Source of the DNA: an uncultured Porphyromonadaceae bacterium
GTDB taxonomy: Bacteria; Bacteroidota; Bacteroidia; Bacteroidales; Muribaculaceae
Length of the DNA: 46,675 nt
Assembly: GCA_946410185.1 (NCBI GenBank)
Contig: CAMJZI010000008.1
Location: 1-46,675, forward strand
Direction: 5' to 3'
The notes under the pieces are model-generated. The model did not search any database. It was not told the origin of the DNA and saw only the letters and a list, made by a program, of their open reading frames with translations. Below are positions 359 through 37,408 of this stretch, piece by piece (positions within the stretch are counted from its first letter, which is position 1; every line of letters begins with the position of its first letter). The position numbers and the translations under genes are program-made.

Positions 359-1645
359 ATGATTGAAGAGAAAACGAGAGAGCAGATTATCGCGCTGATG
401 AAACGCGAGGTGGTTCCGGCAGTGGGCTGCACCGAGCCCATGGCTGTGGCCCTGTGTGTCGCCCGAGCCACCGAGGCACTGGGCACCAGACCCGAGAAAA
501 TCACGGCACTGCTCAGTGCCAACATCCTCAAGAACGCCATGGGCGTGGGCATTCCCGGAACGGGCATGATCGGCCTGCCCATTGCCATTGCCCTGGGCGC
601 GCTCATCGGCAAGAGCGAGTACCAACTCGAGGTCATCAAGGACGTGTGCCCCGAGGCCATTGAGCAGGGCAAGCAATTCATCGACGAGGGCCGCATCGAC
701 ATCCAGTTGAAACAGAATTGCTGCGACAAACTCTATGTCGAGATTCTGTGTGAGGCGGGTGGCCATCGCTCCAGCGCCATCATCCAGGGCTCACACACCC
801 ATTTTGTTCGCGTCACCCTCGACGACCAGGTGCTGCTCGACGACCAGGCGGGCCACTGCAGCGACGGTGACGATGGTGACATCGTGCTCAACCTGCGCCT
901 GGTCTATGACTTTGCCATGCAGGCGCCCGTAGAAGAGATCCGCTTCATCCTCGCTACCCGCGACTACAATCTCAAGGCTGCCCAGGAGTCGCTCAAAGGC
1001 AACTACGGCCACTGCCTGGGCAAGACCATGGACAGGCCGCTGAGCCACGGCATCTTTGGCAACACCATCTTCTCGCGCATCCTGTCCAAGACCGCGCTGG
1101 CCACCGATGCCCGCATGGGCGGTGCCCTCATCCCCGTGATGAGCAACAGCGGCTCGGGCAACCAGGGCATCTGCGCCACCAATCCCGTGGCCGTCTATGC
1201 TATCGAGAACGAGAATACCGAGGAAGAGGTTATCCGTGCCCTCACCTTGAGTCACCTGACGGCCATCTACATCAAGCAGAGCCTGGGCAAACTGAGCGCC
1301 CTGTGCGGCTGCGTGGTGGCATCCATCGGCAGCAGCTGCGGCATCACCTACCTGATGGGTGGCGACTATGACCGCATCTGCTATGCGGTGCAGAACATGA
1401 TTGCCAACCTCACGGGCATGATTTGCGACGGTGCAAAACCCAGCTGCGCCCTCAAGATCAGTTCGGGTGTCTCGACCGCCCTGCTATCGGCTGTACTCGC
1501 CATGGAAGGCCGCCACGTCACCAGTGCCGAGGGCATCATCGACGACGACGTGGACCGCTCGATACGCAACCTCACCGTCATCGGTACCGACGCCATGTGC
1601 GCCACCGACCACATGGTGCTCAACATCATGACTGGCAAGTCCTGA
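359..1645 (+). CDS. cyuA: L-cysteine desulfidase / UPF0597 (CyuA family)
   Basis: This 428-residue protein matches the UPF0597/serine-dehydratase-alpha-like family. Its characterised members are [4Fe-4S] L-cysteine desulfidases that yield pyruvate, ammonia and sulfide. It has the N-terminal AVGCTEP motif (Cys24), NQGICATNP (Cys272) and ICDGAKPSC (Cys356 and Cys363, seven apart). These are the cysteines expected to hold the cluster, with the last pair spaced as in the archaeal enzyme. The length is normal and the protein should be cytosolic. It stands alone between a DsbD-like gene and a terminator at 1762-1793. No transporter (CyuP) gene is adjacent. The start ATG is preceded by an A-rich stretch, usual for this phylum. 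Confidence 0.88.
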   Translation: MIEEKTREQIIALMKREVVPAVGCTEPMAVALCVARATEALGTRPEKITALLSANILKNAMGVGIPGTGMIGLPIAIALGALIGKSEYQLEVIKDVCPEAIEQGKQFIDEGRIDIQLKQNCCDKLYVEILCEAGGHRSSAIIQGSHTHFVRVTLDDQVLLDDQAGHCSDGDDGDIVLNLRLVYDFAMQAPVEEIRFILATRDYNLKAAQESLKGNYGHCLGKTMDRPLSHGIFGNTIFSRILSKTALATDARMGGALIPVMSNSGSGNQGICATNPVAVYAIENENTEEEVIRALTLSHLTAIYIKQSLGKLSALCGCVVASIGSSCGITYLMGGDYDRICYAVQNMIANLTGMICDGAKPSCALKISSGVSTALLSAVLAMEGRHVTSAEGIIDDDVDRSIRNLTVIGTDAMCATDHMVLNIMTGKS

Positions 1646-1761
1646 TCGATACAAGGATTCACACGTCAAAGACAGAAAATGGACTTCTGCTGCATCACTG
1701 CTGGAGAAGCCCGTTCACTATTGTATCAAAATAATAAGACGGTATCAGATTCAGGCACATC

Positions 1762-1796
1762 ACCGACCCGCCTTTTTACAGGCGGGCGGTTTTGTT
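1762..1796 (+). terminator. Rho-independent terminator after cyuA
   Basis: ACCG-A-CCCGCC pairs with GGCGGG-CGGT around a TTTTTACA loop (one bulged A), followed by TTTG-TTT. It lies 117 bases past the cyuA stop. Confidence 0.8.
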
Positions 1797-1849
1797 TCCT
1801 TATATTTTGGCCTGGACATCTATTTACTTGCCATCGGCCTGCTTTGCAC

Positions 1850-2052
1850 AAAAAATAAAAGCGCAGGTCCCTAAAGACACACGCTCTCTCAATCATCACA
1901 ATAGCCAATGCCCTGCAGCGATTGCTACCCACAACAGGGCAGGCTAGCCAGCAGGCCATAACAATTTGCTTAGATAATGCTACTTGTCGAAGTGGTGATT
2001 CGAGAGCGAATTAAGCAAATAATGTACCTAAATGTCACAGTTCATACGTAAC
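1850..2052 (-). ncRNA. Putative structured RNA, copy A (paralogue of 8825-9024)
   Basis: Seen: positions 1857-2034 align end to end with 8826-9000. Read on the minus strand, a -7 box TAATTTTG (2066-2059) is followed by a 5' hairpin closed by a 9-bp stem ATTTGCTTA/TAAGCAAAT. Within it, TCGAA/TTCGA presents the loop TCACCAC (plus strand 1992-1998). A 3' domain is closed by GCTGCAGG/CCTGCGC and ends in TTTTATTTTTT (1860-1850). The 3' domain carries GTGATGA (plus strand 1893-1899), which can pair 6 of 7 with the 5' loop. Inferred: a roughly 200-nt RNA made from its own promoter. I cannot assign it to a known family. It lies downstream of the orphan SusC/D locus, after that locus's terminator-like stems. 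No convincing ORF is present. Confidence 0.55.
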
Positions 2053-2058
2053 TTTCAG

Positions 2059-2066
2059 CAAAATTA
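2059..2066 (-). promoter_or_regulatory. -7 box for putative RNA copy A
   Basis: The minus strand reads TAATTTTG, fitting the Bacteroidetes TAnnTTTG box. It is 25 bases before the conserved 5' end of the RNA. A TTTG at 2090-2093 is 23 bases further upstream, slightly wide for a -33 element. Confidence 0.45.
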
Positions 2067-2167
2067 AAGCATTTTTACAAATAATTTAACAAATTCATTA
2101 AAAAAATACCACCTTGCCAAGCAGATTATCAGTATCAATAGTCTTGCTACAAAGCATGGGTAAAACA

Positions 2168-2199
2168 CGAGAGGGTATGCCGCAAGACATACCCTCTCG
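2168..2199 (-). terminator. Strong 12-bp hairpin downstream of the lipid-binding lipoprotein gene
   Basis: CGAGAGGGTATG pairs perfectly with CATACCCTCTCG around an 8-base loop. On the minus strand it is followed by TGTTTTA, a weak T tract. It fits termination of the operon ending at 2359. Confidence 0.65.
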
Positions 2200-2280
2200 A
2201 ACAATTAATTGACGTGCCTAATGCACGATAAGATCCGTTTTAGAATCCGGCATAGCGTTCATCACGGCATGACAAACATA

Positions 2281-2310
2281 GAGGATGTGCCAAAAATATG
2301 ACACACCCTC
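2281..2310 (-). terminator. Second hairpin 3' of the orphan SusC/D operon
   Basis: GAGGATGTGCC pairs with GACACACCCTC (two G-U pairs) around AAAAATAT. It lies about 50 bases past the last stop codon of the operon. There is no clean T tract, so it may be an RNA 3'-end stabiliser rather than a terminator. Confidence 0.5.
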
Positions 2311-2358
2311 TTCTCAATTTTGGTATTCAATCACGTGAGTGATTGATTAACCTTTTCT

Positions 2359-2925
2359 TTAGAAACCTACATAACGGACACCGCTAACCTTGTATTTAGC
2401 ATAACCATCATCAGGATACCAGGGATCGTCGGTATACTTCACGTAGAAAACGATGGAGTCGACAGGCGAACCGTTTTTCTGCTTGCCAGCACCCTTGAGG
2501 ATCTTTCCATCTTCGATGGTGATACCGAAATCGCCAGAGAGGTTCTCAGCATTGTCCGAATGGAAGGTAAGGTTGTTCAAGTCGATAGACACAAGATTCT
2601 TGAATGAATAGTCGGGATAATTGGGATTGCCATAATATCCACCCACATCAAACCAGCCATTGTCATCAATCCACATCTTTGTGTCAGAATTGTCGGCGGT
2701 GTTGTACGTGAAGAGAGGAATTCTTTCTTCATCATATCCAAAGTAATGAACGCCACCTTCAATGGGTTTCCCATTGTCGTCGACAGCATCAATGTCAACC
2801 ATCCAGTGACCGGCCATCTTCTCCACAGCCGTTCCGCCGGCGGGCTCGTCGGTCTCAACGCTGCACGAAGCAAAACCCAGACCCATCACGAGCGCCATCG
2901 TAAAAATTGAAAAATATTTCTTCAT
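2359..2925 (-). CDS. Lipid-binding putative hydrolase-type lipoprotein
   Basis: A lipoprotein of about 188 residues. The signal peptide ends in FASC, so the lipidated Cys is followed by SVETDE, an acidic stretch of the kind that sends Bacteroidales lipoproteins to the cell surface. I start it at the MKKYFS methionine (2925). An in-frame ATG 12 bases upstream (2937) would add MNKI. The body (GHWMVDIDAVDDNGKP, later DIVFYVKYTDDP-like strands) resembles the Lipid_bd family (putative lipid-binding hydrolase), a beta-rich family usually coded beside SusC/SusD pairs. The biochemical function of that family is not settled. It is the last gene of the minus-strand operon that begins with susC at 8488. 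Confidence 0.6.
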   Translation of the reverse strand: MKKYFSIFTMALVMGLGFASCSVETDEPAGGTAVEKMAGHWMVDIDAVDDNGKPIEGGVHYFGYDEERIPLFTYNTADNSDTKMWIDDNGWFDVGGYYGNPNYPDYSFKNLVSIDLNNLTFHSDNAENLSGDFGITIEDGKILKGAGKQKNGSPVDSIVFYVKYTDDPWYPDDGYAKYKVSGVRYVGF

Positions 2926-2954
2926 AATCTTATTCAATTTAAAGAGATTATTTG

Positions 2955-3749
2955 TTATTGCTTGTGAAGAACAACAGTCATGACAACGGCACTGCCGGCA
3001 TAAGAAGCGAAGTAGCTAATTGTACCAGTCTCAGCATCATACTTGCCATCCTCGATATAATCCAAGCTGTCGCCCCACGCACCAATATAACTGCTGATGA
3101 GCTCGATGTTGCCATCGTTGTCCACACTGACGTAGCCAGTCATGCAGCCGATTGCACCGCTATAGTTCACACCAAATCCACGAACCTGATCATACCAACC
3201 ACCTAAAAGGTCGCTTACCTGGAAGAAGCCAGGAGCCAGTCTCTTAAAGGTGATACCTGTACACTGTGTGGTGTAGCCATAGCCGGCGGCAAACACAGCA
3301 AACGGATACCAATCAACCACACCACTGACCTTTCCATAATACATGGAAGCATTCATATCGGTGTTATATGAACCCGAGATATCCAGTGAAACGGTCGGGT
3401 CGCAGACGCAAACCGTTCGGGTAACAGTTGATGTGAAACCATCGCTACCAGCAGCGGTATAGGTGACATAATAGAATCCCATGGTATTAGGATCAACCTC
3501 GTCACCGCCCACCACGATTTGGCTGGTGATATCCTTGTTCTCACCAGTAGCCTCGTCATAGAGCGTTCCCGTGCAGCCGGGATCGACATAGGCAGTGCCC
3601 ACGGGAACAATCATGAATTCATCTCCCTGCATTTGCAGGTTAGCATAATAGGTCAAGCGTGAGTTGGTGAGCTCGTCATTGTCATCGTTGCAAGATGAGA
3701 ACGCCAGCATCCCAAGTACCACTAAACCAAATAAATATATTTTCTTCAT
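2955..3749 (-). CDS. DUF5012-type surface lipoprotein
   Basis: A 264-residue lipoprotein with signal peptide MKKIYLFGLVVLGMLAFSSC. The Cys is followed by NDDNDE, a strong surface-export signal. Residues of about 35-120 form an Ig-like domain of the DUF5011/5012 type (VDPGCTGTLYDEATGE, VTYTAAGSDGFTSTVTRTVCVCDP). The rest is a beta-rich domain with GDSLDYIEDGKYDAETGTISY. Proteins of this kind sit next to a SusD-like_2 protein and a lipid-binding lipoprotein in many Bacteroidales, and the same order is seen here. The role is probably ligand binding at the outer membrane in support of the SusC/D transporter; the ligand is unknown. Confidence 0.65.
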   Translation of the reverse strand: MKKIYLFGLVVLGMLAFSSCNDDNDELTNSRLTYYANLQMQGDEFMIVPVGTAYVDPGCTGTLYDEATGENKDITSQIVVGGDEVDPNTMGFYYVTYTAAGSDGFTSTVTRTVCVCDPTVSLDISGSYNTDMNASMYYGKVSGVVDWYPFAVFAAGYGYTTQCTGITFKRLAPGFFQVSDLLGGWYDQVRGFGVNYSGAIGCMTGYVSVDNDGNIELISSYIGAWGDSLDYIEDGKYDAETGTISYFASYAGSAVVMTVVLHKQ

Positions 3750-3799
3750 AATTCTTCGTTTAAAAAATAGATGTTTTTATTGATTAGCGCAGGTCACCA

Positions 3800-5281
3800 T
3801 CACTTGGCATCCCAGAAGACACGGTCGCTGAGCAACTTGGACTCGGGGGTGTTCTTGTTCAACTGACGGGCGGTGCTGGGATAAGGCACACGCTTGCACA
3901 GGCCACCAGCCTGGATGTAGTTCAGAGCGGGAACAATCATCTGGCCAGGAGTGTAAACGCTGGGATCCTCAAAAATCTGCTTTCCTGTTGCAACACTGGT
4001 GGCGGGCACGTCGGTGCGACGAACCTCACTCCATGCCTCCATGTGGTCACGGTAGAACAGGGCAGCCCACTTCTGCATATAAATCAGGTTCAAGCGATTG
4101 GCATCGCTGGCCTGGGCATCCCAGTTCACGCGGTTACCATTCAGGTAGGAGCCAACACTCATGCCACGCGAAGCGAAGTCGGCCCGAACACCAGCCTCAT
4201 AGGCAACCTTGGCAGCAGCCTTGTTGCCCCAGCGCATCTGGGTCTCGGCAATGAGGAACTGGAGCTCACTCTGGGTGAAGAAGTAGATGGGAGCTGCCAT
4301 GGCAGGCGTGTAGTCGATAGCGCTCACGTCCTTGTTCTTCCAGTCAACGCCCCATGACTTATAGACGGTCTTGGCACCAGGAATCTGGCCTACATACTCG
4401 CCTGCATCGTTCTGCATGATAGCATAGCTGATGCGGGGATCGTCGGTGTCCAAATAGTAACTTACGATAGGATAGGATGCAACGTGGTTCTTGGTACCCA
4501 AAGCGCGTGCAACATCATACCAGGGATTGTACTGACCCTCGGAGTTGCTGTAAACGTTCCAAGCCACATCACCGGTGAAGAAGTTGTTGGCGTTGACCAG
4601 GGCCAGAGCCTTGGACTGATACTCGCCGGCATTGATGCCACCGTCGATGAGACGTAGATACATGCGCAGGCGCAGTGCGTTGGCAAAGCCACGCCATTGG
4701 CTCACACTCTTGCCGAGCAGCGGGTCGGTGAGCGTCATCGGGTCACCCTCCATGGCGGCCTCGGCGGCGTCTATCTCGGCGAGAACACCCTTGTAAACAT
4801 CCTCACCCTTATCCCAAATGGGATTGGTGTTGGCACTACCCTGCAGGGCCTCGGTGTAGGGCACCTGATCCAGGTTATCAACGAGAACCTGGAAAGCATA
4901 GGCACGCAGCACAGTGCAGGCAAACAGGTCACTCGTGTTCTCGGTGCGGTCCATCACGTTCTTGATGTCGGCAAGAGCGCCGGCATAGAGCGTGCGGTAG
5001 CAACGGTCGAACAGGTTGGTTGACTCATCAATATTGAGCTCGGCCTCGTTATTGTACTGGTTGGCCTCGGGACGCTGCTCAAAGTACTGGGCAAAGAAGC
5101 CGCTATAGTTGAACATGGCATCGCCCACAGCAGCAGCGACAGCATTCTCGGCAGCAGGGAATACCAGGTCGGGCGTCACATCACTGCTCGACGGGTAGTT
5201 GGGGTTGTCGTTGATGTCAAGATTGCACGACGACAGGCTCAACACTGCTGCAAAAGTCAAAAATAAATATATCTTTTTCAT
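3800..5281 (-). CDS. SusD-like (SusD-like_2 type) outer-membrane lipoprotein
   Basis: A 493-residue lipoprotein (signal ending SLSSC, then NLDINDNPN). The opening NxxPNYPSSSDVTPDLVFPAAENAVA and the helical TPR-like body (YRTLYAGALADIKNVM, LRAYAFQVLVDNLDQVPYTEAL) are typical of the SusD/RagB SusD-like_2 branch. In this branch the lipoprotein forms the lid of the SusC barrel and captures ligand. The gene starts 18 bases after the susC stop, so the pair is co-transcribed and presumably co-translated into one complex. The branch is often linked to ligands other than starch; nothing here identifies the substrate. Confidence 0.88.
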   Translation of the reverse strand: MKKIYLFLTFAAVLSLSSCNLDINDNPNYPSSSDVTPDLVFPAAENAVAAAVGDAMFNYSGFFAQYFEQRPEANQYNNEAELNIDESTNLFDRCYRTLYAGALADIKNVMDRTENTSDLFACTVLRAYAFQVLVDNLDQVPYTEALQGSANTNPIWDKGEDVYKGVLAEIDAAEAAMEGDPMTLTDPLLGKSVSQWRGFANALRLRMYLRLIDGGINAGEYQSKALALVNANNFFTGDVAWNVYSNSEGQYNPWYDVARALGTKNHVASYPIVSYYLDTDDPRISYAIMQNDAGEYVGQIPGAKTVYKSWGVDWKNKDVSAIDYTPAMAAPIYFFTQSELQFLIAETQMRWGNKAAAKVAYEAGVRADFASRGMSVGSYLNGNRVNWDAQASDANRLNLIYMQKWAALFYRDHMEAWSEVRRTDVPATSVATGKQIFEDPSVYTPGQMIVPALNYIQAGGLCKRVPYPSTARQLNKNTPESKLLSDRVFWDAK

Positions 5282-5299
5282 GTCTGTTTCGGTTTTTGA

Positions 5300-8200
5300 T
5301 TAGAATTTAACCTGCACATTGAAACCAAACTTGCGTGAGCTCGGGTTAGCCGAGAACTCACCATAGTTACCCTCGAGGTCGTTACCGAAGGTAGAAGTCT
5401 CAGGATCGATAAAGGTGTTGCTCTTGGGAGTCCACAAGAACAGGTTGTTACCGAAGAACGACAGATTTACACCCTGGATAAAGCAGTTGGCAAACCACTT
5501 GTTGGGCAACTGCCACGAGAGGATCACGCTACGCAGTTTCACGTAGCTCTTATCAACCAGGAAGGCACGGTCCAGGTCGGAACCACCGGCATCCCAGTAG
5601 GTGAAGATGCCCGTCTCGTCGAGCGGAGTCGTGTTCTCGGTATAACCAGTCACGTTACCGTCCTCATCTAAGATTTGCTGTACCGAGTTGGGAACGATGA
5701 ACGGGTTGCGGCTGTTGAAGGCCGTCTGGATTGCATTACCGGTAAAGTAGGTAATGTCCTTGGTGCGCGAGTAGAGCATACCACCATGACGAACGTCGAG
5801 GTTGGCAGTCAGGCTGATGCCCTTCCAGCTCAACGTGGTGCCGAAGCCCATGAGGTACTTGTAGTTCATCGAGCCGACAATCTGCTGCTCGGGGTTAACC
5901 AGCGGCTGACCATTGCCGTCGCAGATGATCTTGCCATCCTCCGTCATCTGGGGAACATAAGCCTTGAACACGCCCAGAGGCTCACCCTCGATGGCGTAGA
6001 GGCTCGTGCCACCACTCAGACCGTAAATGGTTGCGATTCCACCAAGCTCATCAGGAAGCTTGATGACCTTGCTCCAGTTCTTGGTGAAGTTCCAGTTGAT
6101 GTCCCACTGGAAGTCGCCAATCTTGACGGGAGTCACGTTAACCAACAGCTCGATACCACGGTTGCGGATCTTACCCAGGTTCATATTCTGGGCCGTGTAA
6201 CCAGTGGCGGGATCCATGTTCAAGGAGAAGATCTGCTTGTCGGTGTTACGATCGTAGTAGGCAGCATCAAAGCTGAAGCGGTTCTGGAAGAAAGCCATGT
6301 TCAGACCAACCTCAAACTCGGTGGTCATCTCAGGACTCAGATCCTGGCTACCCAGGGTGTTACCCAGCGAATATGCGTTCACGCCCACCTTGGTGAAGGG
6401 GAATTGGCTACCGTTACCGAAACCGCTGGAGGCAGCTGCGGCCTGGGCAAATACCGAATTGGTCATGTAAACGCTGGCATCGTTACCAGTGCGACCCCAA
6501 GCGACACGGAACTTACCGAAGCTCAGGATGTCACGCTGCTCGGGCTTGAGCAACTCGCTGAACAGGAACGAGAGGCTCACACCAGGATAGAAGTAGGAAC
6601 GATTGTTCACAGGAAGGGTCGAAGACCAGTCGTTACGGCCCTGCAGGGTCAAGTAAACCATGTTCTTCCAAGCGAACTCGGCACTGCCGAATACGGCCAG
6701 ATAACGTCGCTTCCACTCACTCTGCGAGGTCGTGGGAATCTCGGCGCTGTTGCTCAGGTTGTACCACATGGGGATGGTCAGGTTGGTCACGGTCGAACCC
6801 AGATACTTGTAGCTGCGCTCGTTGCCGTTGAAACCGAGCTGTGCATTCACGTGCCAGTCTTCCAGAATCTGCTGGTCATAGGTCAGCATGAAGTTCTGGT
6901 CGATCTCGCGACGGCGGGTAATGCTCTGTGATACTTCACCGGTGAGCGTACCCAAGGCATCATCCCAGTTGGGAGTATCCTTGAAAAGGGCGGACATGTT
7001 GGGCGAACCAAAGTTGTGGTGGCCCGTGTTGGTGTCCAGACCGAAGCGGTAGGTAGCGTTGAAGTATTTCAAGAATGCATAGTCGAGCTGCAGGTTGCCG
7101 TAGAAGCGCTCCTGCTCATACTCGTTCTGATAGTTGTTGATGATGTAATACGGGTTGGTTACACCGTAGGGGGTGTAGTAGTAACCCGGGGTGTTGAACG
7201 GGTTGTCCAGGTCCTTCATCTCGACGATGGAGATGTCGCGCGGGGTCTGCATGATGCTATTGTACATCGAACCCGTCTTCTGACCAGTGGTCACGAAGTG
7301 GTTGCGCTGGAAGGCATAGTTCAACGAGGTGCTGAAGGTGAAGTTGCCCTCACGGTGGCTACCGCGCGCCGATACCGTGTACTTGGTGTAGGTGTCGGCA
7401 TCCTCGGGGATAATACCGTTATCGTTGATTTGCGACAGCGACACGAAGTAGGTGCTCTTGTCTGTTGCACCGTTGAACGAGATGCTGTTGTTGTAACGGA
7501 AACCGGTAGCGAAGAAGTCCTTCACGTTGTTCTTGATGGGAAGGTAGCTCTTCCAGTTCTGGCTGTAGTTGTAAGTCCAGCCATAGAGTTGCATGGAGCC
7601 GTCAAAGGCGGGACCCCACGAACCGTTCTCAATCTCGGTGTGGTCGCCATACCAACCCATACCGAACTGGTTCTGCATCTGCGGCAGACGCATCACCGAC
7701 TCCCACTGCAGGCCACCGTTGTACTCGATGCCCACACCGCGGCTCTGCTTGGAACCCTTCTTGGTGGTAATCAGGATAACACCGGCGCCGGCACGGCTAC
7801 CATACAGGGCGGTAGCGGCAGCACCCTTCAAGATGGTCATGCTCTCAACATCGTTGGGGTTCACCGCACTCGCACCGTTACCAAAGTCATAACCTGCGTT
7901 CAGGCCATCACCGCTATAGGTAGCGCTGTTGTTCAGGGGCACACCATCAACCACATACAGCGGCTGGTTGCTGCCCGACAACGAGCTCACACCACGGATG
8001 ATAACCGACTTGGAAGTACCAGGGTCGGAAGATGTTTCACCAATCTGCACACCAGCCACCTTACCGGCAAGGCTCGACATGACATCGTTGGTGCGGGCCT
8101 GGGCAATCACGTCACCCTTGATGGGGGTAGCCGAAACACCCAGTGCCTTAGCCTCACGTTTAATACCCATGGCGGTCACCACCACCTCGTCGAGCGTGGT

Positions 8201-8488
8201 GTTGTCCTCCTCAAGGGCAACTGTTACATAACTCGTTACCGCAACGACTTGCGACTTGTAACCCACGCAACTGATCCTGAGTTGCGTCACGTTGTCGTTG
8301 ACGGTTACTGTGAATTGACCGTCAAGGTCGGTGGCGGTGCCTTGAGATGAGCCGATGGCCTGCACGGTGGCACCGATCAACGGCTCATTGTCACTGGCAC
8401 TGACGACCTTACCACTAACGGTCTTGTTGGCCCATGCACTCACACTGATGAGGCATAGCACCATGAGAGTTGATAAAAGTCTCTTCAT
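5300..8488 (-). CDS. SusC/RagA-type TonB-linked outer-membrane transporter (orphan locus)
   Basis: A 1062-residue protein. The signal peptide MKRLLSTLMVLCLISVSAWA is cleaved near residue 20. A carboxypeptidase-D-regulatory-like domain follows (about 22-95, with GKVVSASDNEPLIGATV and DLDGQFTV). The TonB box LDEVVVTA is at 99-106. A plug domain (SSLAGKVAGVQIGETSSDPG, ILKGAAATALYGSRAGAGVILITTKKG) precedes a long beta-barrel ending in KFGFNVQVKF with a terminal aromatic residue. It imports an unknown ligand using TonB energy. Its 5' region is unusual: there is no TAnnTTTG box near the start, and the nearest one (9031-9038) lies over 500 bases upstream, with the RNA element at 8825-9024 in between. 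No sigma or hybrid two-component regulator gene is adjacent. Confidence 0.95.
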   Translation of the reverse strand: MKRLLSTLMVLCLISVSAWANKTVSGKVVSASDNEPLIGATVQAIGSSQGTATDLDGQFTVTVNDNVTQLRISCVGYKSQVVAVTSYVTVALEEDNTTLDEVVVTAMGIKREAKALGVSATPIKGDVIAQARTNDVMSSLAGKVAGVQIGETSSDPGTSKSVIIRGVSSLSGSNQPLYVVDGVPLNNSATYSGDGLNAGYDFGNGASAVNPNDVESMTILKGAAATALYGSRAGAGVILITTKKGSKQSRGVGIEYNGGLQWESVMRLPQMQNQFGMGWYGDHTEIENGSWGPAFDGSMQLYGWTYNYSQNWKSYLPIKNNVKDFFATGFRYNNSISFNGATDKSTYFVSLSQINDNGIIPEDADTYTKYTVSARGSHREGNFTFSTSLNYAFQRNHFVTTGQKTGSMYNSIMQTPRDISIVEMKDLDNPFNTPGYYYTPYGVTNPYYIINNYQNEYEQERFYGNLQLDYAFLKYFNATYRFGLDTNTGHHNFGSPNMSALFKDTPNWDDALGTLTGEVSQSITRRREIDQNFMLTYDQQILEDWHVNAQLGFNGNERSYKYLGSTVTNLTIPMWYNLSNSAEIPTTSQSEWKRRYLAVFGSAEFAWKNMVYLTLQGRNDWSSTLPVNNRSYFYPGVSLSFLFSELLKPEQRDILSFGKFRVAWGRTGNDASVYMTNSVFAQAAAASSGFGNGSQFPFTKVGVNAYSLGNTLGSQDLSPEMTTEFEVGLNMAFFQNRFSFDAAYYDRNTDKQIFSLNMDPATGYTAQNMNLGKIRNRGIELLVNVTPVKIGDFQWDINWNFTKNWSKVIKLPDELGGIATIYGLSGGTSLYAIEGEPLGVFKAYVPQMTEDGKIICDGNGQPLVNPEQQIVGSMNYKYLMGFGTTLSWKGISLTANLDVRHGGMLYSRTKDITYFTGNAIQTAFNSRNPFIVPNSVQQILDEDGNVTGYTENTTPLDETGIFTYWDAGGSDLDRAFLVDKSYVKLRSVILSWQLPNKWFANCFIQGVNLSFFGNNLFLWTPKSNTFIDPETSTFGNDLEGNYGEFSANPSSRKFGFNVQVKF

Positions 8489-8824
8489 ACAGTAAACAAT
8501 TAAGTTAATCCACCGTCAGGTTCAGGCGAGCGCATACCTGGGCCTGCCGGGGGATTGATGTTGATTATCTCTAAGGTAATGTGTAACAGCAAGTGCGCTC
8601 TGCTTACTGATTTTTGTCGCGGTAACAAGGGACACAAAGCGGCAACCTGGCACACCATCCCATCTGGCTTGTGCCTGCATGTAATAGTTAGCCTGGCCTC
8701 TACGGGCCGTTTTTATACCTCTCTCTCTGTACATCCCTATTCTTTATCTAGTTTTTATTGCCACACATGTGTGACTTTTCATTCATCTTCAGTTGGAAAG
8801 CAGCGCGATTCTTCATAGGAGTAG
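8489..8824. other. Leader region of the orphan susC
   Basis: No credible gene on either strand; small ORFs here lack family features. It holds the palindrome at 8762-8773. No canonical promoter box was found on the minus strand, so transcription of susC either reads through from the promoter at 9031-9038 or uses a non-standard promoter. Confidence 0.5.
8762..8773. promoter_or_regulatory. 12-bp perfect palindrome upstream of orphan susC
   Basis: CACACATGTGTG is a perfect palindrome about 275 bases upstream of the susC start, between the RNA element and the gene. It could be an operator for an unknown dimeric regulator; nothing else supports this. Confidence 0.3.
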
Positions 8825-9024
8825 AAAAAGCGCAGACTTCCGCAATCCGCTCTCAGGCTCACCACAAGCCGCAAAACTCTATTGGTACATCTGCGCCTTC
8901 TATCATCTTTATTGGAGGCACACGGCTCAATGAGTATTATATTTTGCTCGTCACGATTCGAGGTGGTGATTCGATAGCAAGTGAGCAAATTATCCAAATG
9001 TTTTGCGGTCCTTAATATGGACAC
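8825..9024 (-). ncRNA. Putative structured RNA, copy B, upstream of orphan susC
   Basis: Seen: 8826-9000 aligns end to end with 1857-2034, with conserved ends and a divergent middle. On the minus strand a TATCTTTG box is followed about 30 bases later by CATTTGGATAATTTGCTC. The 5' hairpin is closed by TTTGCTC/GAGCAAA and again has the loop TCACCAC (plus strand 8963-8969). A 3' domain is closed by GCGCAGA/TCTGCGC and followed by TTTTTC. The 3' domain has GTGGTGA (plus strand 8859-8865), a perfect 7-base complement to the loop. Relative to copy A, one pair of the 5' stem changes from T-A to C-G. Inferred: either an independent small RNA or an attenuating leader of susC, which starts about 340 bases further on. 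Confidence 0.6.
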
Positions 9025-9030
9025 ACGCTG

Positions 9031-9038
9031 CAAAGATA
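9031..9038 (-). promoter_or_regulatory. -7 box for RNA copy B and possibly the orphan susC operon
   Basis: The minus strand reads TATCTTTG, an exact TAnnTTTG box. The -33 region is not canonical (a TTTG occurs only 13 bases upstream). The predicted start is near 9024. Confidence 0.6.
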
Positions 9039-9112
9039 ATATCTTTTTGAACAAAATGCACTTTTTTTAACAAAAAAGCATTTTTTTTCCTTCTTGACCT
9101 GCTTTTTTAAGG

Positions 9113-9141
9113 AAAAACCGAGCCTCTTCACAGAGACCCGG
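9113..9141 (-). terminator. Terminator after the Sus-locus GH97 gene
   Basis: On the minus strand CCGGGTCTC pairs with GAGGCTCGG (two G-U pairs), followed by TTTTTCC. It closes the GH97 transcript and insulates the promoter at 9031-9038. Confidence 0.8.
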
Positions 9142-9198
9142 CATCGTGGGATGACAAGAAAATGTCTATTTTCACCCTTAATGGGTAATATTTTGGCA

Positions 9199-11184
9199 TT
9201 AATGAGCCAGTAGCTGGATGGCCACGCCACCGCCAGAAGCCAGATGCAGGTTCAGGACAGTGCTGCGGTCCACTTCCAGGCGACGGATGGTCATGGGATA
9301 AGGATTGGTGCGGTAATCGGCATCTGGCCCGTCCTCATAGACGATGGCCTGGTAACGGGTGCCATCGGTCAAAAAATCGAGTGGCAGACTGAAATCACGG
9401 GGCTGATCGTCGGTCACGCCACCTATATACCAGTTATCGGTTCCGCGCTCCTGACGGGCATAAACTACATACTTGCCCATTGCCGCATGCGGCACCAGGG
9501 TGCGTTCCCAGTTGGTGGGCACCTCCTCGATGAACTTAAAGGCAGGTTGATGTTCATAATTCTCAATCTGATCGGCAGCCATGTGTCCCGGGCTATATAT
9601 AACGATGTACTCGGCCAGCTGGTGAGCCAGCGTGGTCTGGGGACGTGTACCGGGCACCGAGTCGTTATGGTAGTTGAAGATGCCTGGCGTGAAGTCCATG
9701 GGACCGCCCAGTCCGCGCGTGAACGGCAGGATGCACTCGTGATAAGGCGGATTGCCGCCGGCACGGTCAAACGCGTTCCACTCCTGGCCACGCATGCTCT
9801 CGGTGCCGATAAGGTTAGGCCATGTGCGCTGGATGCCGCTGGGCATGGCGCCCTCGTGGTTGACGATCATCAGCTGGTAGCGCGCGGCCGTCTCGATGAC
9901 CTTGCGGAAGTGGCGAATACCCCACTGCGAGTGCTGCAACTCTCCGTTATAGAAGTGCGGATTGACATAGCCCGTCTTGACCGTGTTGATGCCCAGCGAA
10001 TGATACAAGCGATAGGCATCCTCCATCTGGTTCTCATAGTTCTGCGCCGCACCACCCGTCTCATTATGGGCAATGATGCGCACGCCACGCTCACGGGCAT
10101 AATTGGCAAGCCCCTTCAAGTCATAGTCGGGATAGGCCTGGGTGAAGTTGAACTTGTCGCCATAGCGGCCCCAATCACCGTCCCAGCCATAGTTCCAACC
10201 CTCGACCAGCACACCGCCAAATCCGTGGCGGGCGGCAAAATCGATATAGCGCTTGGCATTGGCCGTGGTGGCTCCATGACGGTCGCCTTGGGCCCAGGTC
10301 CACAGCTGCTTCTGCATGGCCCACCAGATGCCCACATACTTGGTCGGCTTTACCCATGAGGTGTCCTCGATCTTGCACGGGTCATTCAAGTTCAGCGCCA
10401 TGCGCGACAACAGGATGTCGGCAGCTTTGCGCCCGATGATGATGGCACGCCAGGGACTCACGCGGGTATCCCCCACCCTCACGCGGTCACCATTCTTCCA
10501 GGGAACCAGATCCACCTTGAGCGTCGTGCCCTCGTGAGACAAATTCATCGTCGAGTAGTCGGTCAGGTTGGCCTCCATGATGGCCATGTAGAGCGAGTCG
10601 TTCACCTCCAGGGCGATGGGACCCGACATGTTGCCTTTCTTGCTCACGGGCTCGCGGGTGTAGATACCCTCATAATAGGCCTGCAAAGCGGGAATTGACC
10701 ATGCCTGGGCATCGGTGGGCAGGGCAAATTGCGTCACCTCGTCCATGATGACAAAGTCCTGCAAACCTGGCTGGCGAGGATACTCGTAGCGGAAGGCCAC
10801 GCCGTCGTCAAAGGCGCGGAAAACCACGTCCAGACAACGCTTGTGACCGTTCCTTTCCTGCAGGCGCACCCGCAACTCGTTGTAATGGTTGCGCACCTGG
10901 GCATCTTCACCCCAGGGCTGGCTCCACGTCTCGTCGAGCGACAAACGCGTCACCTTACCCATCTTGAAGTTGTCCTTGAAATCTCCGTCGCCTAGCACAA
11001 AGCCCAGCGGCGAGCGATCAATGATGCGCTCTTGTCCACGCATCACCTGGTACCAAGCCTTGCCCCCGTCAACACCAATAGTCACCGTCAGTGCCCCGTC
11101 AGGCGAACTCACCTTCACGTCCTTGGCAACCGACAACAGGCTGACAACCAAGAACATCAAGACTAAAAAAAGTGTTCTTTTCAT
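9199..11184 (-). CDS. GH97 glycoside hydrolase (SusB-like alpha-glucosidase) of the Sus locus
   Basis: A 661-residue secreted enzyme; the signal peptide MKRTLFLVLMFLVVSLLSVAKD has no lipobox, so it is probably periplasmic. The order is an N-terminal beta-sandwich (to about 270), a TIM barrel (YVGIWWAMQ, GFGGVLVEGWNYGWDGDW, RIIAHNETGG, VKTGYV, VNHEGAMPSG with Glu444, RTWPNLIGTES) and a C-terminal beta domain. VKTGYV lacks the Asp that acts as nucleophile in retaining GH97 enzymes, and Glu444 is in the HE motif of the inverting SusB group. PGIFN replaces the PGIFE seen in the second GH97 of this window. It follows the Sus lipoprotein gene on the same strand but has its own -7 box and lies beyond a terminator. 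Its likely job is to finish malto-oligosaccharides to glucose. Confidence 0.9.
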   Translation of the reverse strand: MKRTLFLVLMFLVVSLLSVAKDVKVSSPDGALTVTIGVDGGKAWYQVMRGQERIIDRSPLGFVLGDGDFKDNFKMGKVTRLSLDETWSQPWGEDAQVRNHYNELRVRLQERNGHKRCLDVVFRAFDDGVAFRYEYPRQPGLQDFVIMDEVTQFALPTDAQAWSIPALQAYYEGIYTREPVSKKGNMSGPIALEVNDSLYMAIMEANLTDYSTMNLSHEGTTLKVDLVPWKNGDRVRVGDTRVSPWRAIIIGRKAADILLSRMALNLNDPCKIEDTSWVKPTKYVGIWWAMQKQLWTWAQGDRHGATTANAKRYIDFAARHGFGGVLVEGWNYGWDGDWGRYGDKFNFTQAYPDYDLKGLANYARERGVRIIAHNETGGAAQNYENQMEDAYRLYHSLGINTVKTGYVNPHFYNGELQHSQWGIRHFRKVIETAARYQLMIVNHEGAMPSGIQRTWPNLIGTESMRGQEWNAFDRAGGNPPYHECILPFTRGLGGPMDFTPGIFNYHNDSVPGTRPQTTLAHQLAEYIVIYSPGHMAADQIENYEHQPAFKFIEEVPTNWERTLVPHAAMGKYVVYARQERGTDNWYIGGVTDDQPRDFSLPLDFLTDGTRYQAIVYEDGPDADYRTNPYPMTIRRLEVDRSTVLNLHLASGGGVAIQLLAH

Positions 11185-11705: not shown

Positions 11706-12812
11706 TCACCCGCCCTGATAGTCTTTGCTGATGACTTCGTAGCCACCGTCGAAGATACGGACGTAGATATCGTGGTCGATGGTGAAGAACAGGTCGTCAC
11801 CTTCCCATTGTACGCCATTGTTATTGTTGTTCGGAATCAGGTGGAGATTGAGATTAGTGTTAGCCTCACCCAAATCAAAGTAGGTGTACTCCAGTCCGTT
11901 GATGGTCTGTGTGCCCGTGGGAGCCATGCCCGGCCATCCGCCGAATGCTTCAGCGTCACCCCAGGCATAGAGGGCAAGGTCGGTCTGGCTCGACTCATTG
12001 AGTACGAACAGCGCAAAGCCGTCGTGCTTAGGGCCTGCCGTAATCTCTTCCACGCCATTCGCGGTGACACGCAGATAGAGGTCGTGGTTGATGACGTAGT
12101 CGAAATCTGCCAACTGGATGCCCTCACCGGCATTGTTGAAGATGAGGTGCTGACTCCGACCAGTATTAGCCTCGCCCATATCCCAGTACTTGTACTGCTG
12201 TCCGTTGATGGTCTGTGTACCCGTAGGAGCCATGCCTGGCCATCCGCCGAATGCTTCAGCATCACCCCACTGATAAAGCGTGATGGCATTCCATCCTGTC
12301 TCGTCAATCACATAGACCACATAGCCGTCATGCTCAATCTCGGGACCGTCACCGCTCCAGTAGTAGCTCTCCCAGCGTTCACCCCACACGTTGGTGAAGG
12401 TGCCCAGGCCGGGATTGTCGGTGTGGTTTGCCATTTCACCCTTGACGGTGAACTCGGTGCCTTGGGTAGCACTGTAGAAGCGGAAACCGTTGGCAAGCGT
12501 CTTGCCCGACACAAAGGTTGACGGATCAAGATAGATACCCCACTTGATGTCACTGCCAGGAGCCTTCATGAGTTTCCACTCTTCCTTACCCATCGACGCG
12601 CTGTCGCCGTTAAAGGCACCCATGATGTAGATTTCCTCGTCCACTGCCGTGCCATAGGGGGCGATGAACTCGAGCAGGATGCGGTCGGCACGCGTCTCGA
12701 ACTGCTGGCGCTCGTGGTCAAAAACGATGTCCTCGTCCTTGGAGCAACTGGTCATCACTGTCAAGGCGGCCAGGAGCACCACAATCAGACTATATATATT
12801 CCTTGTTTTCAT
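11706..12812 (-). CDS. SusE/SusF-like starch-binding surface lipoprotein
   Basis: A 368-residue lipoprotein. The signal ends MTSC (Cys23) and is followed by SKDED, a surface-export signal. Residues of about 30-150 form a SusE/F-like N-terminal domain (EEIYIMGAFNGDSAS, GFRFYSATQG). Two CBM26-like starch-binding modules follow, each with LYxWGDAEAFGGWPGMAPTGTQTING and a later HLIxNN strand; the aromatic residues and GGWPG are the recognisable marks. The DNA of the two modules is nearly identical over about 60 bases (11903-11965 and 12208-12270), a recent duplication or gene conversion. A third module lies beyond the in-frame TGA. The gene starts 32 bases after the susD stop, in the Sus operon, and should bind starch at the cell surface. 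Confidence 0.85.
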   Translation of the reverse strand: MKTRNIYSLIVVLLAALTVMTSCSKDEDIVFDHERQQFETRADRILLEFIAPYGTAVDEEIYIMGAFNGDSASMGKEEWKLMKAPGSDIKWGIYLDPSTFVSGKTLANGFRFYSATQGTEFTVKGEMANHTDNPGLGTFTNVWGERWESYYWSGDGPEIEHDGYVVYVIDETGWNAITLYQWGDAEAFGGWPGMAPTGTQTINGQQYKYWDMGEANTGRSQHLIFNNAGEGIQLADFDYVINHDLYLRVTANGVEEITAGPKHDGFALFVLNESSQTDLALYAWGDAEAFGGWPGMAPTGTQTINGLEYTYFDLGEANTNLNLHLIPNNNNNGVQWEGDDLFFTIDHDIYVRIFDGGYEVISKDYQGG

Positions 12813-12844
12813 ATCTGTATCTTAATTATGATGTGTGATAACAA

Positions 12845-37186: not shown

Positions 37187-37408
37187 TCTATAAGAAGCCA
37201 CACCAAAGGATGTGATGAAACTCCGACTAAATACAGGATTTGAGGGCGCCATAATCTTTGTAATCCTCCGGCTGTTAAGCACCTTGCGGTTGAGGCCCGC
37301 CATTGACTACAGCGCTTTTCTCGGCATTTCATAAAAATTTGAAGAGTATCCCGATCGTCTTTGATGTGGACATTTTTTCAATGAGCGTTGCCATTATTTT
37401 TGACAGGG

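Follow-up and report, generated by a model that had tools for sequence, protein, structure and literature searches.

Intergenic repeats beside a Bacteroidales SusC/D locus are probably leader RNAs that terminate transcription conditionally

In a 46,675-nt stretch of DNA from an uncultured Porphyromonadaceae bacterium of the Muribaculaceae (assembly GCA_946410185.1, contig CAMJZI010000008.1, here called the window), two similar intergenic sequences stand on either side of a susC/D locus. What do these repeats do? A preliminary description took them for paralogous small RNAs acting in trans and tied to glycan-uptake loci. We favor another answer, with a probability of about 0.7: both repeats would be Bacteroidales leader RNAs, about 150 to 200 nt long, that act in cis as conditional transcription terminators. 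Their position before a same-strand open reading frame (ORF), the promoter box upstream, and the secreted products downstream make this the most likely reading of the sequences.

Coordinates are positions in the window, and all features listed below are on the minus strand; the genome itself comprises 1.84 Mb and is 62% complete. As the preliminary description stated, the two stretches align on the same strand. In a blastn search of their own genome, they matched each other over a 36- to 37-nt core (E of 0.002), with no further match below an E of 1 for either copy. A covariance model, R1, was built from 12 aligned copies, of which eleven were used (the two window copies and nine kin), and it scores the window copies at 139.6 and 96.7 bits, both as training sequences. 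The helices are designated P1 to P5, and the two long-range helices are designated PK1 and PK2.

8825..9024, minus: right RNA, from the start suggested by the promoter box only to the U-run; R1 match at 8826-8989 (139.6 bits, training sequence)
9031..9038, minus: right RNA, promoter box TATCTTTG; no other TAnnTTTG (or TAnnTTTTG) in 8489-9060
8983..8989, minus: P1 5' strand TTTGCTC, right RNA, pairing with 8943-8949 (covariation helix 1)
8943..8949, minus: P1 3' strand GAGCAAA, right RNA, read from the sequence
8973..8980, minus: PK1 5' strand TTGCTATC, right RNA, pairing with 8848-8854 only in part in this copy
8963..8969, minus: PK2 5' strand, loop TCACCAC, right RNA, pairing 7/7 with GTGGTGA at 8859-8865 (covariation helix 3)
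8917..8922, minus: P3 5' strand TGTGCC, right RNA, strand 1 of the inner hairpin (covariation helix 6)
8890..8897, minus: strand 2, GGCGCAGA, right RNA, with strand 1 and the terminator strand as alternative partners
8856..8870, minus: P5 hairpin GGCTTGTGGTGAGCC, right RNA, with the PK2 3' strand (8859-8865) in its loop (covariation helix 8)
8848..8854, minus: PK1 3' strand GAGAGCG, right RNA, from the sequence and the PK1 analysis
8825..8836, minus: terminator strand 3, TCTGCGC, and U-run, right RNA, from the sequence and the P4 analysis
5300..8488, minus: susC, separated from the right RNA by 338 nt without a TAnnTTTG; probably sharing the RNA's promoter
1850..2052, minus: left RNA, with no same-strand gene after it; R1 match at 1857-2019 (96.7 bits, training sequence)
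2059..2066, minus: left RNA, promoter box TAATTTTG, read from the sequence
2002..2008, minus: PK1 5' strand CGCTCTC, left RNA, pairing 7/7 with 1882-1888
1992..1998, minus: PK2 5' strand, loop TCACCAC, left RNA, pairing 6/7 with GTGATGA at 1893-1899
1850..1867, minus: CCTGCGC and T-rich end, left RNA, read from the sequence

Most of the structural features claimed earlier were found again. Both copies have the 5' hairpin TTTGCT/AGCAAA with the identical loop TCACCAC and a T-rich end, and the switch of one stem pair from T-A to C-G is real, the P1 strands being TTTGCTTA/TAAGCAAA in the left RNA and TTTGCTC/GAGCAAA in the right. The pairing of the loop with the 3' domain (7/7 right, 6/7 left) also holds. 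The two TAnnTTTG boxes are present (9038-9031 and 2066-2059) and lie about 40 nt before P1; the preliminary description put them 25 to 30 nt before the conserved 5' end. A second long-range helix, CGCTCTC/GAGAGCG (PK1), which that description lacks, is intact in the left copy and broken by mismatches in the right, while the left copy has an imperfect P5 stem and the incomplete PK2. In the right copy, GGCGCAGA is common to the inner hairpin and the terminator. Folded with ViennaRNA, which ignores pseudoknots, the right copy adopts the terminator fold unassisted (z of -0.74, unremarkable), and the left copy has its PK1 strands paired and its PK2 strands paired in a shifted register (z of -2.26). 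In the right copy, 11 nt separate the completed knotted fold from the terminator strand, and such a position is a usual decision point of terminator-type switches.

From 5' to 3', the proposed layout would begin with the TAnnTTTG box, a variable 5' hairpin, and P1, whose loop region would hold the 5' strands of PK1 and PK2. The P2/P3 arm would follow, then P5, whose loop would pair with that of the P1 region (PK2), and then the PK1 3' strand. About 10 nt further on would come the terminator strand with its U-run, a short spacer, and the start codon. In the read-through state, the knotted fold with P3 would free the terminator strand and polymerase would enter the gene; in the off state, P4 would form and transcription would end early. 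A metabolite, a protein, another RNA, or a physical signal might tip the balance. At the window locus, the susC operon is probably transcribed from the promoter of the right RNA, because no other TAnnTTTG lies between the RNA and susC, and this RNA would form the operon's leader. The left copy is a family member without a gene behind it.

For analysis of the fold, 80 distinct copies were drawn from the R1 matches and aligned with MAFFT without fitting (alignment A5). Degenerate copies, a truncated copy (L056), a partial copy (L087), a weak minus-strand match in L067, duplicate or same-contig copies, and L102 were left out, and the structure columns were picked by eye from one member. With a 39-pair structure, 92.2% of cells were paired, and 25 pairs and 277 cells had changed on both sides. 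The covariation score was 0.279, compared to 0.130 in shuffled alignments, and 0 of 500 shuffles reached any of five measures; slid versions of the structure paired in only 30 to 45% of cells. These data support the earlier view that the repeats are structured RNA, and the proposed covariance-model search of related genomes indeed recovered a family whose pairs covary.

P3 is paired in 93.8% of cells. The terminator helix P4 is paired in 97.7% and has 11 double-change cells, values that 0 of 500 shuffles reached for either measure. P3 and P4 share alignment columns 106 to 110 and therefore exclude each other; a terminator and an alternative helix are thus both kept, with mixed covariation controls for P4, which owes its support less to covariation than to conserved pairing. 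PK1 was assessed without an alignment. Its strands scored 19.95 with their own partners and 15.18 with swapped ones (best of 300 swaps, 16.16), and PK1 occurs as about ten different helices. PK2 is near-invariant in these RNAs, five of its seven pairs never varying in A5. Changes on both sides are nevertheless seen in CCACCAC/GTGGTGG (L108, L109, L111, and L114) and in the further variants TCAGCAC/GTGCTGA, CTACCAC/GTGGTAG, and CTGCTAC/GTAGCAG. P1, P2, P3, P5, PK1, and PK2 are backed by covariation, PK2 with few changes in this first class of RNAs and many in the second class described below.

When 101 genomes of the genus were searched with a DNA query, 8 had first-class copies, own genome included. 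A 21-letter pattern matched 52 stretches in named genomes; the titles of 51 name Bacteroidales groups and that of one names Lachnospiraceae, which is probably a mislabel (NCBI labels of the matching metagenome-assembled genomes are rough). R1 gave 73 matches across 62 sources, and in some of these one place is present twice. In a sample of the family it matched 41 of 297 genomes and 15 of 30 genera. In a sample of the order it matched 17 of 393 genomes and 12 of 205 genera, where the weakest matches score about 26 bits and not all are certain. The phylum sample yielded 2 of 296, namely the own genome and a match (L139) that was rejected, since its sequence was read and the fold is absent. Because no convincing copy was found in the phylum sample beyond the order, first-class RNAs are, within the genomes sampled, restricted to Bacteroidales, where their occurrence is patchy. 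Two copies are of note in their own right: L069:5707-5853 is a broken copy in which an intact 5' half runs into unrelated repeat sequence, and L063:5053-5201 and 5400-5546 are tandem copies with nearly identical flanks and differing cores (PK1 CGCCTCT in one and CGCTCTC in the other).

The family is apparently undescribed. Scans of Rfam 15 gave no match overlapping either RNA, in the window at the gathering score or in 1600-9200 at an E of up to 5, and no overlapping match at an E of up to 1 in 7 first-class, 11 mixed, 20 mostly class-2, and 6 further loci; the Rfam check proposed earlier thus gave no match in the loci scanned. A literature search, which covered neither a 2017 survey of 224 RNAs nor the RNA atlas of Segatella copri, found no published description. 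The accessible portions of PMC2864571 and PMC7366714 contain no such motif, and those of PMC8632094 do not mention Bacteroidales.

The second class was recognized at L142 in genome G214, beside a homologue of one of the downstream proteins. This locus has no R1 match (best score, 3.5 bits with filters off), yet its leader shows the same layout in other letters, with PK1 TTGTGTAAGA/TCTTACACAA, PK2 ACTGCCA/TGGCAGT, and a terminator that shares a strand with the inner hairpin. In a scan for the fold it scored 41.0, whereas the 99% level of the controls was 32 and the highest single control reached 36.6. Used as a DNA query, the L142 RNA matched 10 of 178 family genomes, some over 23 to 31 nt only. 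A second covariance model, R2, built from seven places, matched 54 of 184 order genomes and 44 of 142 genera, with up to nine copies per genome; the range was sampled within the order only, and the matches, of which 34 in 31 sources were found again, were inspected in part. The genome of the window holds one R2 match (G000 contig 21, 22944-23151), with PK2 ATCGCCAA/TTGGCGAT and terminator helix GCGTGGGGG/TCTCCACGC. On 93 sources derived from the first class, the window included, R2 gave three weak matches of 20 to 21 bits, two of them on first-class copies. The long-range strands of 41 class-2 copies scored 21.13 with their own partners and 14.44 when swapped (best of 200 swaps, 15.39), and the PK2 loops vary (ACTGCCA, ACTGGTA, ATCGCCAA, TCTAGTAAA, and others).

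A third letter set lies on the minus strand of L085 near 2957, before a 233-codon ORF related to the L031 and L032 proteins (31% over 70 residues, E of 1e-8 to L032). The double-helix scan gave 128 matches in 780 kb (87 of them first class), compared to 2 in 384 kb of a block-shuffled control. Many of its matches were rejected as inverted repeats, coding sequence, or mirror images, and a supposed second RNA in L039 was an ordinary inverted repeat. The helix finder in turn missed the fold or took other helices in L182, L209, L206_1837, L202, L192, L213, and L177, which the class-2 model matched or was built from. Class-2 surroundings have features of their own. In L183, a class-2 copy shares its locus with a group II intron domain, together with a DUF805b RNA close to threshold (205-280 and 2695-2729). 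On G495 contigs 5 and 6 and G372 contigs 54, 338, and 597, several class-2 copies lie less than about 600 nt from a contig end, like repeats at which assemblies break, and the two G495 contigs begin in near-identical secreted-protein genes.

Genomic position was counted over 94 distinct first-class cores, identical cores being counted once; three degenerate ones (L069, L033_8391, and L034) were dropped, leaving 91. Thirteen of 19 loci that were read entered these counts, with L132, L133, L139, and copies already counted excluded. A same-strand ORF of at least 60 codons starts within 130 nt of the core end in 76 of 91 copies (median distance, 63 nt), compared to 19 of 88 on the divergent side. 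At a minimum of 100 codons, the counts are 68 of 91 and 15 of 88. The rule is mechanical and accepts the right window copy on the strength of a spurious ORF. In the second class, such an ORF follows 36 of 41 copies (control, 11 of 39). The two classes therefore hold a 5'-leader position by count, with the right window copy 338 nt away from its gene and the left copy geneless. In equal-length pieces from 62 rows, a TAnnTTTG box was found upstream of the RNA in 59 and in the spacer in 1 (2 with looser patterns); an earlier count with a looser pattern and a longer upstream piece gave 84 of 91 upstream and 1 of 76 in the spacer. A promoter match precedes 27 of the 41 class-2 copies. By a crude rule, 62 of 76 downstream ORFs encode a signal peptide, whereas among the remaining ORFs of the named loci 76 of 253 do; by a similar crude rule, the count is 25 of 36 in the second class.

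For the most part, the ORFs that follow 47 of the copies are unrelated to one another (21 listed alignments between different loci at an E of 1e-3), and few encode SusC/D, so the suggested tie to glycan-uptake loci is not supported. A Pfam scan of 10 downstream proteins found DUF4468 and weak matches only. In some downstream proteins, the signal peptide is common and the remainder differs by eye. The downstream lipoproteins of L095, L098, and L101 to L104 share a signal peptide like MKKVFSLMLLLAT, with several mature parts differing, again by eye. Short elements recur in the spacers as well. A motif, GAGCCGAYGGGCAAYGGCATATAAAYGCCYA, stands right before the ATG in L054, L055, L057, L058, and L077; it could form an H-type pseudoknot and has no Rfam match. 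Spacers between U-run and ATG in both classes (for example, L037, L059, L103, and L171) contain a hairpin with a GGCAATATTGCA-like core, and GCAATA occurs in 44 of 94 first-class spacers, compared to 28 of 94 when reversed.

A metabolite riboswitch with a conserved binding pocket would also place a terminator and an alternative hairpin on a shared strand, and the long invariant stretches within the first class would fit it. The second class, however, has the same layout in other letters (no search was made for a pocket common to both classes), and the downstream genes have no evident common pathway. We consider a strict metabolite riboswitch improbable.

Several observations weigh against a cis-acting conditional terminator, and some of them speak for autonomous small RNAs acting in trans, whose exposed loop would pair with mRNAs such as susC while its 3' partner hid the loop until needed. 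Fifteen of 91 copies, the left window copy and that in L027 among them, have no ORF within the limit; in some of these the locus ends too early or the ORF lies narrowly past the limit (e.g., L080 and L030). The 338 nt between the right copy and susC far exceed the usual spacing, and the nearer ORF is implausible as a gene. In genome G689 (L222:7240-8707, minus; also L132), six folds with six different PK1/PK2 sets stand in a row with no plausible gene within, one mechanical 124-codon ORF overlapping the row. The scan reported four of these on the minus strand and gave the other two as mirror images only; in view of the T-run that follows, those two are likewise taken for minus-strand RNAs. The downstream genes lack a common pathway, and among 22 homologues of downstream proteins that have no first-class copy next to them, the scan detected the fold in L142 alone; these protein families therefore also exist without the RNA. 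(L143, also a homologue of a downstream protein, was considered as a bearer of the RNA and has neither class in front of it.) First-class copies are mostly single in a genome, with up to three in the family sample and four in G082. The fold has its own weak points: P2b is paired in 75.9% of cells, 33 of 500 shuffles matched P4 for pairs with double changes and 115 of 500 for pair types, P4 slid by -2 has 12 double-change cells, and PK1 is broken in the right window copy (score of 9.0) and in L036 (9.5).

Small RNAs acting in trans would be expected to have a promoter box and a terminator of their own, as these RNAs do, and the geneless copies and the row of six would suit them. The right loop CACCACCTCG (8960-8969) even fits the DEVV codons of susC (8174-8191, minus) at 10 of 10 positions, which recalls the GUGGUGA-containing target proposed earlier. 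This fit was judged without target statistics and is probably due to chance, because the same loop, TCACCAC, occurs in copies with no susC behind them and other members, including those of class 2, have other loops. The narrow distance to a following ORF likewise argues against a trans role, 76 of 91 copies being leaders rather than the free-standing RNAs first envisaged. We regard autonomous trans-acting RNAs as unlikely, although the copies without a gene behind them may have a trans role.

Leader RNAs that terminate transcription conditionally remain the preferred reading, and a broader proposal can be built on it. The classes might form one Bacteroidales-wide RNA superfamily set by shape and not by letters, in which two adjacent long-range helices are free to drift in sequence but do so in concert, so that each RNA answers only itself, giving orthogonal switches before fast-changing surface-protein genes, sometimes stacked up to six deep. 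This proposal is tentative, and we find it rather doubtful as a whole. If the leader-RNA reading is right, about 3 in 10 of the sampled Bacteroidales genomes (54 of 184) would hold a leader RNA class missing from Rfam, a control layer of gut bacteria that stands mostly before secreted proteins and is invisible to present annotation. A fold kept by covariation with few letters kept between classes would be unusual for a switch.

The repeats could instead be DNA elements, mobile cassettes or recombination sites that carry a promoter and capture various genes much as integron sites do. The patchy occurrence fits this, as do near-identical cores before unrelated ORFs (those of L054 and L057 have 2 differences in 148 nt). 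At L028, near-identical copies b and d flank susC/D, and L027 has a single copy by the same serine dehydratase gene as the window (92% identical protein) with no susC/D on the window-equivalent side. In contrast, the fixed order of promoter, fold, and U-run suits an RNA. Behind the ORFs, no common 3' boundary of the integron type was seen in 500-nt flanks, save in related loci and for one short motif. The first-class core had no match in phages or plasmids, and the class-2 core had none in plasmids (phages were unsearched for class 2). A viral origin was also rejected: one viral contig matched a pattern, as a 30-nt partial match only, and a second viral pattern gave 0. A DNA element is accordingly a poor candidate.

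The same loci bear on the bracketing of SusC/D, which is correct for the window (SusC, 5300-8488; SusD, 3800-5281) but not a general rule. Genome G082 (L028) has three RNA copies before susC/D and one after, and L027 has, by eye, a different SusC/D-like pair beyond the dehydratase gene. Given these two arrangements, the bracketing in the window may be a duplication in this lineage. The flanking copies at L028:6630-6787 and 12659-12816 are direct repeats and could recombine.

Several known systems resemble these RNAs in part. The type III toxin-antitoxin RNA ToxI has the order promoter, pseudoknotted RNA, terminator, and ORF, which is the order seen here; however, the ORFs here are mostly secreted and of many kinds, and comparison of 47 of them (10 in Pfam) showed no single toxin family. 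UpxY, found in Bacteroides, and LoaP are NusG paralogues that act on antitermination leaders, and the likeness would lie in read-through control in a long leader. Pseudoknots occur in several terminator-type riboswitch classes. Riboswitches and attenuators of this type share the long leader and the terminator that overlaps an alternative fold, and crcB and pfl, as described in PMC2864571, are examples; the RNAs here differ in having no evident common pathway downstream and two classes that share layout and not letters. The closest comparison in related bacteria is with FopS/GibS, paralogous Bacteroides small RNAs whose single-stranded 5' seed (R1') binds near start codons in trans, with 12 to 15 copies of FopS per genome and a family deposited in Rfam, according to the accessible text of PMC11697453. 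Both are sets of paralogous Bacteroidales RNAs that have a Rho-independent terminator and are linked to genes of the SusC type, as far as that text shows, whereas the RNAs here lie mostly in cis before genes and the first class has few copies. No Rfam match to FopS was found in the window, its presence in Rfam being taken from the deposition statement in the same text, and the 5' half here is paired in P1, PK1, and PK2 in place of a single-stranded seed.

The window also contains a Bacteroidales-1 (6S-like) RNA at 37190-37371 on the minus strand (125 bits).

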